Virus record (IMG/VR): IMGVR_UViG_3300047476_000521
Span: 1 to 64,000 of that record
Source: a virus
Length of the DNA: 64,000 nucleotides
Reading direction: 5' to 3' (one strand)
Made by a program: the position numbers and the translations under genes. The notes beneath the pieces are model-generated. The model did no database searches, had not been told where the DNA came from, and worked only from the letters and a program-made list of their open reading frames with translations. Positions within the stretch are counted from its first letter, which is position 1. Each line of letters opens with the position of its first letter. Shown in pieces: positions 16,175 through 29,929 of the stretch.

Positions 16175-16207
16175 GTTCATCTCATACCGAACTCTGGAGG
16201 ATTGATT

Positions 16208-16327
16208 ATGGTTGTCTATTACACTCGCTGGCTCAATCTTTTTGTTACTGATTACATTATCAGCGATGTGAAGCCATATAGCTGCGATGCATCCTGGTGG
16301 ATTGTTCCTGGAACTCTGGAGGATTGA
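16208..16327 (+). CDS. Mini-protein, SWWIVPGT family, copy 1, 39 aa
   Basis: MVVYYTRWLNLFVTDYIISD then VKPYSCDASWWIVPGTLED. TGGAGGATTGATT precedes the ATG. The second half is repeated in the next gene, with 48 bp identical at DNA level (16264-16311 and 16392-16439), so the duplication is recent. A more distant relative at 18664 ends SEWLVPGT. Function unknown. Confidence 0.7.
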   Translation: MVVYYTRWLNLFVTDYIISDVKPYSCDASWWIVPGTLED

Positions 16328-16329
16328 TT

Positions 16330-16461
16330 ATGATCGTTGTATATTACGCTCCCTGTTTTAACGTTTTTTCTGTTACTGGTTACAATTTCAACGATGTGAA
16401 GCCATATAGCTGCGATGCATCCTGGTGGATTGTTCCTGGCACTATCAATCTGGAGAAGTGA
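16330..16461 (+). CDS. Mini-protein, SWWIVPGT family, copy 2, 43 aa
   Basis: MIVVYYAPCFNVFSVTGYNF then NDVKPYSCDASWWIVPGTIN. Same upstream site (TGGAGGATTGATT) as copy 1. The N-terminal half has diverged, while the C-terminal half is identical, which points to gene conversion or selection on that half. Confidence 0.7.
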   Translation: MIVVYYAPCFNVFSVTGYNFNDVKPYSCDASWWIVPGTINLEK

Positions 16462-26515: not shown

Positions 26516-26706
26516 TAAAGGAACTGATCATACTGGCGCAGGTGGCTAATACAATTCCTCCTGCTGACATTATGAGAAATGACATTCCGACTTATTCATG
26601 GGAAAGGCCAACACAGCCACCGAGATATCAAGTTCCTGCTACTGGTATTTACTCGGCAGGATCTAGACCTCCTCCGATTTCGTTTGAAGAGGTTGAAGTA
26701 GAATAA
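26512..26706 (+). CDS. Pro-rich small protein, 64 aa
   Basis: MIKELIILAQVANTIPPADI..., Pro-rich and probably disordered (SWERPTQPPRYQVPATGIYS). ATGA overlap with the previous gene. Its stop codon overlaps the late-like element in front of the tmRNA gene. Confidence 0.6.
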   Translation: MIKELIILAQVANTIPPADIMRNDIPTYSWERPTQPPRYQVPATGIYSAGSRPPPISFEEVEVE

Positions 26707-26709
26707 ATA
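26702..26709 (+). promoter_or_regulatory. Late-type element before the tmRNA gene
   Basis: AATAAATA, one mismatch from TATAAATA, placed so that transcription would start near 26715, just inside the expected acceptor piece. Weak evidence because the motif is short and AT-rich. Confidence 0.35.
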
Positions 26710-26995
26710 GAATTGCCAAAGGTCGTTGAGAGACGAAACATAGGTTTCTTGGACGTGGGTGCGATTCCCACCGTCTCCACCATGGATACATTCAACCATA
26801 CACACCTGGTGCTAACTAGGTTGCGCAGCCGAAAAGACGTAGAGAAAGAGTCTGTTAGCGGAATGTATCTTTGATGGGGACGAACAGGTTCGACAGGATT
26901 CAGTAAGGTCGTAAGGAGACTGTAGGCATTTATAGGTGCAAACGATAACTTCGCACCATTTGAGATGGCACTAGCTGCTTAATCTCATTGGGTTG
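26710..26995 (+). ncRNA. ssrA: Circularly permuted (two-piece) tmRNA
   Basis: The tRNA-like 3' part comes first: T arm GTGGG-TGCGATT-CCCAC (26755-26771), acceptor strand CGTCTCC, A73, CCA at 26780-26782. A 93-nt intervening segment (26783-26875) follows, whose ends pair (GATACATTC 26785-26793 with GAATGTATC 26861-26869; GCTAAC 26811-26816 with GTTAGC 26854-26859). The 5' part starts GGGGACG at 26876 and pairs with CGTCTCC, including the G3-U70 alanine determinant. The tag frame from the resume GCA at 26938 to TAA at 26980-26982 reads ANDNFAPFEMALAA. This is the permuted ssrA layout of alphaproteobacteria. The product would rescue stalled ribosomes and tag proteins for proteolysis. The outer 5' boundary is approximate. 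Confidence 0.93.
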
Positions 26996-27028
26996 GCAAC
27001 TTCCTAGAAACAGAATAGTTGCTTTTTT
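26996..27028 (+). terminator. Terminator after the tmRNA coding piece
   Basis: GCAACT (26996-27001) pairs with AGTTGC (27017-27022), followed directly by TTTTTT. The GCAACT/AGTTGC stem may also form the 3' end of the precursor. Confidence 0.75.
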
Positions 27029-27044
27029 CATTTTGGAGTTTATA

Positions 27045-27242
27045 ATGACCGATCAAAAAGACAAATACACCGGCATGCGTGAGTTTAATTTTGCATTGAG
27101 CACTAATGTCTATATCTGTGCAGCAGCAGGAGCTTTTCTAGGAGCAATTCTAGGTTATTGGGCGACAGGATTAGTAGAGATCTCTGTAGCTTCGTCAATC
27201 ACTTTCTTAGTTCTTTCTGGTATCTTTGGGATGTTTGTGTAA
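27045..27242 (+). CDS. Two-TM protein, 65 aa
   Basis: MTDQKDKYTGMREFNFALST then two membrane helices with Gly/Ala-rich faces (AAAGAFLGAILGYWATG; ITFLVLSGIFGMFV). TTGGAG precedes the ATG; a longer frame upstream runs into the tmRNA. The GAFLGAILG glycine pattern suggests helix packing. Function unknown. Confidence 0.65.
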   Translation: MTDQKDKYTGMREFNFALSTNVYICAAAGAFLGAILGYWATGLVEISVASSITFLVLSGIFGMFV

Positions 27243-27287: not shown

Positions 27288-27364
27288 GGCTCCGTAGCTC
27301 AGCTGGATAGAGCAACAGACTTCTAATCTGTGGGTCGTGTGTTCGAATCGCACCGGAGTCGCCA
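27288..27364 (+). tRNA. tRNA-Arg (anticodon TCT)
   Basis: Full cloverleaf: acceptor GGCTCCG/CGGAGTC (one G-U), D arm GCTC...GAGC, anticodon stem ACAGA/TCTGT with loop CTTCTAA (TCT), T arm GTGTG-TTCGAAT-CGCAC, discriminator G and encoded CCA. It reads AGA, a codon frequent in the AT-rich late genes of this window (many Arg codons there are AGA) and usually rare in alphaproteobacteria. Confidence 0.97.
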
Positions 27365-27504: not shown

Positions 27505-27702
27505 ATGCAATTTAGACCTTCAGCTTCGTATTCTCAACTCACCCTGTTAAGGCTTGCATTTGAATACGAGTTAAACAATGTTTTAAAGTTCGAGGATAGG
27601 CAGGAATTCTTTAGAGTTATACAATACCTACAAGAGCGAATTGAACAAATTAAGGAAGATGAGAAAAAATGCTTAAAGATTCAAGGTTCGTCGAAGAAGT
27701 AG
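27505..27702 (+). CDS. Hypothetical helical protein, 65 aa, TAG stop
   Basis: MQFRPSASYSQLTLLRLAFE..., helical (FFRVIQYLQERIEQIKEDEK). TGAGGTTTAGT precedes the ATG. Overlaps the gp33-like gene by 34 bp and ends with TAG. No recognised family, but its place before gp33 suggests a replication or transcription accessory role. Confidence 0.65.
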   Translation: MQFRPSASYSQLTLLRLAFEYELNNVLKFEDRQEFFRVIQYLQERIEQIKEDEKKCLKIQGSSKK

Positions 27703-27887
27703 AAAAGCTCTGTAGAGATAAAAACATCGAATATATTGATGCTGTTGTTTATTGGTGTAATAAAAACAATCTAGAAATTGAAACTGCAGCTTACTGGATT
27801 AAAAAGGATCCGGTAATGAAATCTAAAATTCAGCTAGAAGCTGAAAATCTAAATGTCCTAAAGCGTGGGGCAAGACTTCCGATATAA
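27669..27887 (+). CDS. 33: Late-transcription co-activator (gp33-like), 72 aa
   Basis: MLKDSRFVEEVEKLCRDKNI then EYIDAVVYWCNKNNLEIETA. T4 gp33 (112 aa) has a similar pattern (a helix, SYLEATTAFLEENSIPE, then EKIQSEAIDENLL); here the last part reads KSKIQLEAENLNVL. It would bridge RNA polymerase beta flap and the sliding clamp at TATAAATA promoters. Gene order 33-zincin-59-32 here parallels T4 59-33-32. GAAGATGAGAAAAA precedes the ATG. Call from short-range similarity plus synteny. Confidence 0.75.
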   Translation: MLKDSRFVEEVEKLCRDKNIEYIDAVVYWCNKNNLEIETAAYWIKKDPVMKSKIQLEAENLNVLKRGARLPI

Positions 27888-27917: not shown

Positions 27918-28427
27918 ATGCACGTTAAAACAATCGGTAAACCCTTAAATGTATCTCTGTCAATGGCCAAAAAGGCAGCTGTTTTTTATGGAAAATATCT
28001 TGTCGGTAATGGTAAACTCTACAATAATTTGAAACTGACAATTCAATTTGAAAAAATGTCTTCTATGGAGGACGATTATGCCTACTGTGATTGGGTAGAC
28101 GATAACAATCTAAAAAGAGAATTTGTAATAGGCGTAGATAGAACTCTCAATAAAAAAGAGACCTTGCTAGCTTTAGCCCATGAGATGGTGCATCTAAAGC
28201 AATACGCCAAAGGAGAGATGAAAGACATTCATCATCCAGTCAGAATGGTCAAATGGCAAGGCGAGAGATATCTTTATGAGGAAATGGATTATTGGGAATG
28301 TCCCTGGGAAATTGAAGCGTATGGTCGTGAGAGAGGTCTATACTTCAAATTTTTGAATTATCTAAAAGATGGTGAGCCCGAATTAAAATGTCAGCCTTCG
28401 AAGCGTATAAAGATTATGTCGCCTTAA
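27918..28427 (+). CDS. Zincin-like protein (HExxH), 169 aa
   Basis: LAHEMVHLKQY puts the HExxH zinc-binding motif at residues 88-92; the later YWECPWEIEAYGRERGLYFK supplies a possible third ligand Glu (E-x-EAYGRE). TTGGAGGCTAGT precedes the ATG at 27918. Such single-domain SprT-like or M-family zincins occur in T4-like phages and may process protein on DNA or virion proteins; the target is unknown. Overlaps the gp59-like gene by 40 bp. Confidence 0.8.
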   Translation: MHVKTIGKPLNVSLSMAKKAAVFYGKYLVGNGKLYNNLKLTIQFEKMSSMEDDYAYCDWVDDNNLKREFVIGVDRTLNKKETLLALAHEMVHLKQYAKGEMKDIHHPVRMVKWQGERYLYEEMDYWECPWEIEAYGRERGLYFKFLNYLKDGEPELKCQPSKRIKIMSP

Positions 28428-28963
28428 AAAACCATTTCACCAAAACTGACTACGACTATATCAAATATAACGGTAAAACAGGTCTAACTTTTTCTTCCTT
28501 TGAGAAACGCAAGGATAAGGTGTTCTTTGAGAAGCTTGCGAAAAATCCGGACTATCACGAGTATCTTGTTGCTAACCTTAGTAACAATCCGAAGCTTTGG
28601 ATTCGTGATCTCGCATATTCAGAAAATGCTAATGTAATCTTCCAAAACTGGAAGAAACGAAACCAATCCCTCACATATAATTTCAAAACAGATTTCAAGA
28701 AAATTTTAGATGCTCCAAAAGGGCATCAACATCCTGCAGCCATGCGAACGTATCTAGCAGGAGAAATTAGTTTAGAGTCCCTTTGTATATTTGTATCTAT
28801 GACTGGTGCGCTTAAAGAGTGGGACTCTAAGTTGGAATACGATCCTATCTGGGAAGATCTTAGGATTAGGGTCGTAAAATATACTCCATTCATCAAATTT
28901 GATAAAATGAAGATTAAAAAAGTCATGCTTGACGTTATGGATGATTTGGGGTATACTAAATAA
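28388..28963 (+). CDS. 59: Helicase loader (gp59-like), 191 aa
   Basis: AFEAYKDYVALKNHFTKTDY, DYIKYNGKTG, FEKRKDKVFFEKLAK, YLVANLSNNPKLWIRDLAYS: these blocks match T4 gp59 (KSVYKLYLMIKQHM..YDVIKYN..YQKRRDKYFFQKLSEK..LIFISNLVANQDAWIGDIS, as recalled). gp59 loads the replicative helicase onto gp32-coated forks. Length is near T4 gp59 (217 aa). It lies directly before the gp32 gene, as expected for partners. Confidence 0.9.
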   Translation: MSAFEAYKDYVALKNHFTKTDYDYIKYNGKTGLTFSSFEKRKDKVFFEKLAKNPDYHEYLVANLSNNPKLWIRDLAYSENANVIFQNWKKRNQSLTYNFKTDFKKILDAPKGHQHPAAMRTYLAGEISLESLCIFVSMTGALKEWDSKLEYDPIWEDLRIRVVKYTPFIKFDKMKIKKVMLDVMDDLGYTK

Positions 28964-28985
28964 TGTTGGGTGATACAAATGCCCA

Positions 28986-29020
28986 TCATACATTGTAATA
29001 CATTGTCATACGGAGAAATA
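28986..29020 (+). promoter_or_regulatory. gp32 leader with direct repeats
   Basis: ATACATTGT is repeated at 10-bp spacing (in the 28988-29007 stretch) just before the GGAG of gp32. In T4, gp32 represses its own translation through its leader; unstructured repeats here could serve the same end. Inference only. Confidence 0.35.
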
Positions 29021-29023
29021 CAC

Positions 29024-29929
29024 ATGGTAGATTTCAAGTCACTTAAAGCTTCTTCAGGTAAGAAGTCCCTCGAAACACTTACAGCAGAACTAACAAAGAT
29101 TTCAGGCGGCGAAAGCAAGGGCTCTGATGATCGTTTTTGGACGCCAACAGTCGATAAGGCTGGTAACGGTTATGCTGTTATTCGTTTCCTTCCCCCACCA
29201 GCTGGCGAAGACGTTCCATTCGTTCGTATCTTTGATCATGGTTTCCAGGGTCCAGGCGGATGGTATATCGAGAACTCGCTAACAACTCTCGGTAAGAACG
29301 ACCCAGTTTCAGAGTATAATTCTAAGCTTTGGAACTCAGGTATTGAAGCCAACAAGGAAATTGCTCGTAAGCAGAAGCGTCGCCTTCATTTCGTAAGCAA
29401 TATCTATGTTGTTACTGATTCAGGCAATCCTGCTAACGAGGGTAAGGTTTTCCTTTACAAGTACGGCAAGAAGATCTTTGATAAGCTAAAGGAAGCTATG
29501 GAGCCACAGTTTGCTGATGAAGAGGCAATTAATCCTTTTGATCTTTGGGCTGGTGCTAACTTCAAGTTAAAGATCCGTCAGGTCGAGGGTTATCGTAACT
29601 ACGATAAGTCAGAGTTTGATAAGATTGCTCCTCTTCTGAACGATGACGAAGAGCTAGAGGCAGTTTGGAAAAAGGAACATTCTCTGAAGGAATTCCTTGC
29701 GCCATCTAACTTTAAGACTTATGAAGAGCTACAGGCTCGTTTGGCTAAGGTTCTGGCCGAAGACTCTGCGCCTGCAAAGCGTGCAAAGGCTGAGACCACA
29801 GAAGTTCCTTGGGATAACGATGAGGATTCAGCGCCAAAGTTTAAGGCTGCTAGTGCACCAAAGTACGCAGCTGAAGATGATGACGATGATGAGTCGTTAG
29901 AATTCTTTAAGAAGCTCGCAAGCGAGTAA
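29024..29929 (+). CDS. 32: Single-stranded DNA-binding protein (gp32-like), 301 aa
   Basis: The start is the ATG after CGGAGAAATACAC, 18 codons inside the longest frame. An N-terminal Lys/Ser region (FKSLKASSGKKSLETLTAEL) stands for the cooperativity domain; the core has FWTPTVDKAGNGYAVIRFLP, PFVRIFDHGFQGPGGWYIEN, RRLHFVSNIYVV and FKLKIRQVEGYRNYDKSEF, all typical of T4-like gp32. The acidic C-terminal tail (AAEDDDDDESLEFFKKLASE) recruits other replication proteins. There are no Cys residues at all, so the zinc site of T4 gp32 is missing. Terminator follows. Confidence 0.95.
   Translation: MVDFKSLKASSGKKSLETLTAELTKISGGESKGSDDRFWTPTVDKAGNGYAVIRFLPPPAGEDVPFVRIFDHGFQGPGGWYIENSLTTLGKNDPVSEYNSKLWNSGIEANKEIARKQKRRLHFVSNIYVVTDSGNPANEGKVFLYKYGKKIFDKLKEAMEPQFADEEAINPFDLWAGANFKLKIRQVEGYRNYDKSEFDKIAPLLNDDEELEAVWKKEHSLKEFLAPSNFKTYEELQARLAKVLAEDSAPAKRAKAETTEVPWDNDEDSAPKFKAASAPKYAAEDDDDDESLEFFKKLASE

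Follow-up and report, generated by a model that had tools for sequence, protein, structure and literature searches.

The window analysed here is a stretch of 64,000 bases, the first part of a 136,102-base virus record from a T4-like phage. It contains a two-piece, circularly permuted tmRNA gene at 26715-27028 on the plus strand, in which the CCA-bearing acceptor piece is encoded first. The Rfam model tmRNA_permuted (RF04321) matched 26721-26982 with 88.3 bits (E 1.4e-15; cut-off 47), the model alpha_tmRNA (RF01849) matched 26680-27025 with 71.3 bits (E 1.9e-17; cut-off 50), and ARAGORN called a permuted tmRNA with the tag ANDNFAPFEMALAA. An earlier note, made from the letters of the window, had read a phage-encoded, circularly permuted two-piece tmRNA at this place and named the Rfam alpha-tmRNA model and ARAGORN as checks. 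Both recovered the gene there, the former above its cut-off, and the reading is supported by the Rfam models, by the acceptor strands pairing across the permuted arrangement and by compensatory changes seen in relatives.

The 3' (acceptor) piece (26715-26782, plus strand) carries the 3'-side strands of P2, the T arm (26755-26771) and the acceptor 3' strand CGTCTCC (26772-26778), followed by A73 and CCA (26779-26782). The RF04321 and RF01849 alignments and covariation of P2b, P2c, P2d, T stem and acceptor in 33 composites support this assignment. A 93-nt intervening segment (26783-26875), which is presumably removed, separates it from the 5' piece. The part of the 5' piece before the tag (26876-26937) measures 62 nt. 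It starts with the acceptor 5' strand GGGGACG (26876-26882), which forms seven of seven pairs with CGTCTCC across the 93-nt segment, G3-U70 included, exactly as the earlier note had read it. A D-loop-like motif (GGTTCGAC), the 5'-side strands of P2b (26909-26912), P2c (26918-26921) and P2d (26925-26927) and a 10-nt spacer ending in ATAGGT also belong to this piece. The tag reading frame (26938-26982), also called by ARAGORN, opens with the resume codon GCA at 26938 and closes with the stop TAA; a tag frame is kept in 54/54 complete relatives of the short type described below. In the 3' domain of the mRNA-like piece (26983-27028), the stem GCAACT/AGTTGC (26996-27001 with 27017-27022) encloses the conserved loop CCTAGAAACAGAA and precedes a T6 run. 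The terminator that the earlier note placed after the tag is only partly right, this being the conserved stem of the tmRNA's own 3' domain with the T6 run behind it. A terminator scan of the plus strand made no call at the stem and T6 run, several relatives lack the T run, and we dropped the terminator reading of this hairpin.

The internal loop between P2c and P2b (GUUGAGAG opposite AAGGA; window 26721-26736 with 26909-26921) is nearly invariant in relatives, although the scan pattern required part of it. With its 3-nt bulge and tandem GA it resembles a k-turn.

The intervening segment folds, as the earlier note had proposed (z -2.37 against shuffles), and the 10-bp helix between its two ends (26784-26793 with 26861-26870) co-varies in relatives. 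Its median length was 78 nt in 27 phage genes and 31 nt in 51 hosts (rank-test p 5e-10, where the phage genes were chosen solely by T-arm sequence and the test ignores kinship). Four contigs (L119, L287, L296 and L305) have a segment of 242 nt with a 68-codon ORF behind a GAGG-like ribosome site, located between CCA and the precursor helix.

Downstream, a tRNA-Arg(UCU) gene adjoins the tmRNA (27288-27364, plus strand; ARAGORN; RF00005 64.9 bits), followed on the same strand by genes for a gp33-like late-transcription coactivator (27669-27887; phrog_254, E 1.6e-14), a gp59-like helicase loader (28388-28963; phrog_269, E 3e-52) and a gp32-like single-strand DNA-binding protein (28970-29929; phrog_224, E 1e-115), with tail and baseplate genes farther downstream. 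A 65-aa ORF between tmRNA and tRNA-Arg (27045-27242) had no PHROG match; its counterpart next to gp33 in L008 is 77% identical, though gp33 itself is 48% identical. ARAGORN detected 28 further tRNA genes in the remaining genome, and a dense array of 27 tRNA genes for most amino acids lies in the same phage genome (G000 104716-111000; L013 716-7000). Related short-type phages carry 8-27 tRNAs. The window also encodes an amber-suppressor tRNA with the anticodon CUA (916-989, minus strand; labelled tRNA-Pyl by ARAGORN), and TAG is a rare stop in the phage (5/88 ORFs of at least 150 aa). This tRNA had no DNA match in 15 related records, and the idea that it forms one system with the tmRNA was dropped. 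Imperfect direct repeats are present at 16189-16443, seen as secondary matches of ~85% in a comparison of the window with L095.

Members of the permuted class typically have a pseudoknot, PK1, after P2 and ahead of the resume codon; none was found in the window tmRNA. A script read 72 genes including the window, 54 of them complete. The distance from the 5' end to the resume codon was 62-64 nt in 54/54 complete short-type genes and 82-88 nt in 50/51 alphaproteobacterial hosts, the remaining host having 161 nt. In the hosts, the PK1 stems co-vary (S1 142/147 and S2 177/196 cells paired). P2 of the short type, consisting of P2a, P2b, P2c and P2d, extends almost to the resume codon, and P2d is followed by just 10-11 nt in all 33 composites, which is too short for PK1 (~27 nt in hosts). 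Judging from these sequences, the ~22 nt missing from the short type are those of PK1. The RF04321 model itself pairs the tRNA domain only, PK1 not being part of it (PMC11915505).

To analyse the remaining helices we used 33 distinct short-type composites and compared their pairing with 2000 shuffles; the resulting figures are not probabilities, and the composites are relatives rather than independent draws. The acceptor was paired in 231/231 cells with G3-U70 in 33/33, the T stem in 165/165 and P2b in 132/132 with double changes at all four pairs, and 0/2000 shuffles matched any of these three. P2c was also paired in 132/132 cells (4/2000 shuffles as good), and the precursor helix formed by the ends of the intervening segment in 292/297, with many double changes (0/2000 shuffles as good). 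Among short-type relatives, P2b changes from UCGU/ACGA to GUUC/GAAC, P2c from GGUC/GACC to GAUC/GAUC and P2d from GCC/GGC to GCU/AGC. The automatic count for P2d (90/99) is low because of register, the window P2d (GCC/GGC) having an inner loop of 3 nt instead of 2 nt. P2b reflects few independent events, since one block change is common to many sequences; more of them, with many separate changes, are seen in the 3' stem and the precursor helix. The 3' stem is built from unrelated sequences in the relatives with pairing kept, and its conserved loop (CCTNGnAACAGAA) is found in 53/54. Covariation of the helices besides PK1 argues for a functional RNA. Gene structure, covariation, loss of PK1, conserved position and exchange are all computational results, as is the selection that still acts on the tmRNA.

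A signature scan with the 5' piece of the window detected 69 viral contigs, giving 70 short-type phage contigs with the window, and gp33 lies downstream on the same strand in 50/50 of those where it was found. In pattern scans of viral contigs, numerous permuted tmRNAs turned up on T4-like ones, and in most cases the same stretch also contained gp33, gp59 or gp32. The short-type signature matched 0/299 Pseudomonadota genomes, and BLAST with two short-type genes against 50,697 phage records revealed none of the short type. The limited host sample makes 'phage-only' a provisional term. By tmRNA DNA, the window had no close isolate match; the RNA type and the phage relatives lead us to guess at an alphaproteobacterial host.

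In a tree of gp59, short-type phages fall into two lineages, and the test rejected a single clade (p 9e-5). This speaks against a single origin, yet exchange of a cassette explains the pattern. L082 and L130 share an identical mature tmRNA, while their gp33, gp59 and gp32 are 48.5, 35 and 56% identical. L119 and L287 share a 468-bp tract of 97.9% identity that covers the tmRNA and the 242-nt segment, and their gp33 proteins are 48.5% identical. Near-identical tmRNAs beside neighbour proteins of 35-56% identity imply exchange between phages, and the simplest reading would be that a tmRNA cassette of ~0.5 kb is exchanged at a fixed place. A tmRNA-like tag region (ANDNFAPLAAAA) was also seen in L137 (1745-1868; PBDU01000009, from a MAG named Euryarchaeota) beside T4-like gp59 and gp32. 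L137 seems to be a phage contig that was placed in an archaeal bin, a concrete example of misbinning, which has been raised as an explanation for archaeal tmRNAs (PMC11915505).

A phage-encoded permuted tmRNA as such is already known in marine phages and is not new, since Methylophilales phage Melnitz (MZ577097) and Pelagibacter phage Mosig (MT647606) carry one at the same place and a survey of 2022 counted 53 two-piece tmRNAs in phage genomes. Like these two T4-like phages, the window has its ssrA gene immediately ahead of gp33, both on one strand, and like Melnitz it has a long intervening segment (142 nt in Melnitz). In contrast to the window, their 5' regions measure 81 nt (Melnitz) and ~80 nt (Mosig) and contain, by eye, a PK1-like pseudoknot; Melnitz also has a glutamine riboswitch after the tmRNA, for which the Rfam search of the window gave no counterpart. 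With the alphaproteobacterial tmRNA (RF01849, Caulobacter type) the window shares the permutation, the T arm, the acceptor with G3-U70, a P2 that connects the two pieces, an ANDN... tag and a 3' loop with AACAGAA; the hosts differ in having PK1, a shorter intervening segment and 82-88 nt ahead of the resume codon. In mycobacteriophage DS6A the tmRNA consists of the tRNA-like domain only; it is likewise a phage-encoded tmRNA relative with parts removed, but it has no tag frame, which the window keeps (PMC4131195). E. coli tmRNAs engineered to carry a hairpin or a single strand instead of PK1 also have no PK1 upstream of the resume codon; they are one-piece laboratory constructs, whereas the window RNA is natural, two-piece and extended in P2 (PMC3968760, PMC4236655).

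The earlier note had suggested that the tag core APFEM retargets proteolysis. The window tag has an alanine resume codon, a hydrophobic ALAA end and a stop, but ANDNxAP starts and ALAA or AVAA ends are common in host tags (e.g. ANDNFAPVALAA and ANDNVAPFAVAA). Retargeting is therefore unsupported, because ANDNxAP...ALAA tags are ordinary in alphaproteobacteria, and a retargeted tag was rejected as a special feature. Tags vary widely among sister phages. An xPF core was commoner in phage tags (11/32 distinct tags) than in hosts (1/48), an excess from which no conclusion is drawn since part of the phage set was selected by pattern. The unusual feature of the window tmRNA is its predicted architecture, with the loss of PK1, which the earlier note had missed.

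For a long time PK1 was reported to be the sole pseudoknot that tagging requires; later reports described it as replaceable in laboratory work. One rival reading is that the window encodes an ordinary phage two-piece tmRNA, in which PK1 is present in a missed form or its loss is functionally silent drift. In E. coli tmRNA a hairpin or single-stranded RNA can replace PK1 (PMC3968760, PMC4236655), so that its loss may cost little, and long-type phages that keep PK1 live in the same way; the 10-11 nt left after P2d in 33/33 composites, however, offer too little room for a missed PK1, and the short form is common to many contigs in two phage lineages. We consider an ordinary tmRNA of this kind unlikely. 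The tolerance of E. coli for PK1 replacement also makes the loss compatible with activity, and an unusual tertiary element could replace PK1 in the short type.

The window tmRNA is very probably a functional phage ssrA gene, a reduced variant of the permuted class that has lost PK1 and is exchanged as a cassette upstream of gp33. Processing, charging, use of host SmpB, tagging and a benefit to the phage are what we infer for it. A single transcript would begin with the acceptor piece, and pairing of the ends of the 93-nt segment would place the acceptor strands side by side. The segment would presumably be cut out by RNase P and 3' processing enzymes of the host, so that two RNAs joined by base pairs are left, and alanine is expected to be loaded because of G3-U70. 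No SmpB was detected in the phage record or in 15 related records, where absence is not proof as the record is linear and perhaps incomplete, and so host SmpB is presumably used; an SspB adaptor was likewise not found in the phage record or the 15 relatives. Together with EF-Tu, host SmpB would deliver the tmRNA to ribosomes that stall on broken mRNA while infection proceeds, and the phage tag may send the unfinished protein to host proteases of the ClpXP type. In this reduced variant, PK1 would be gone and P2 would run to 10-11 nt before the resume codon.

Sharing of host SmpB, with none encoded by the phage, would also suit a competitor of trans-translation that binds host SmpB and ribosomes and blocks or redirects rescue. 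The tRNA-like domain of DS6A, proposed as a decoy or blocker of host rescue, provides a precedent (PMC4131195), and loss of PK1 could weaken tagging. Divergent relatives nevertheless keep the tag frame, the stop, an AUAG-like resume signal and the 3' domain, none of which a pure SmpB trap would need. A decoy role is for this reason less likely than a working tmRNA, and we regard it as improbable. The gene might instead be a remnant or a host gene once captured (moron) that no longer has a function, since integration often takes place at tmRNA genes and a phage could acquire one by chance, but this is highly improbable given compensatory changes across all helices, where a neutral gene would lose pairing, the position kept in 50/50 contigs and at the same locus in Melnitz and Mosig, and the absence of the form from the 299 sampled host genomes.

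A more far-reaching reading, which we regard as probable, is a natural class of two-piece tmRNA, phage-only so far, that works without PK1, with P2 extended directly before the resume codon, and whose gene is passed among T4-like phages in a ~0.5-kb cassette, always at the locus upstream of gp33. The combination of the tmRNA with large tRNA arrays, a fixed place by late-transcription genes and exchange among phages would make two motives for carrying a ribosome-rescue RNA testable, namely breakage of many mRNAs by infection and cleavage of tRNA or mRNA by host defence. If the reading is true, the PK1-less two-piece tmRNA would be a small scaffold for structural work, and this natural, widespread and co-varying RNA would reveal how little is required for positioning the resume codon.
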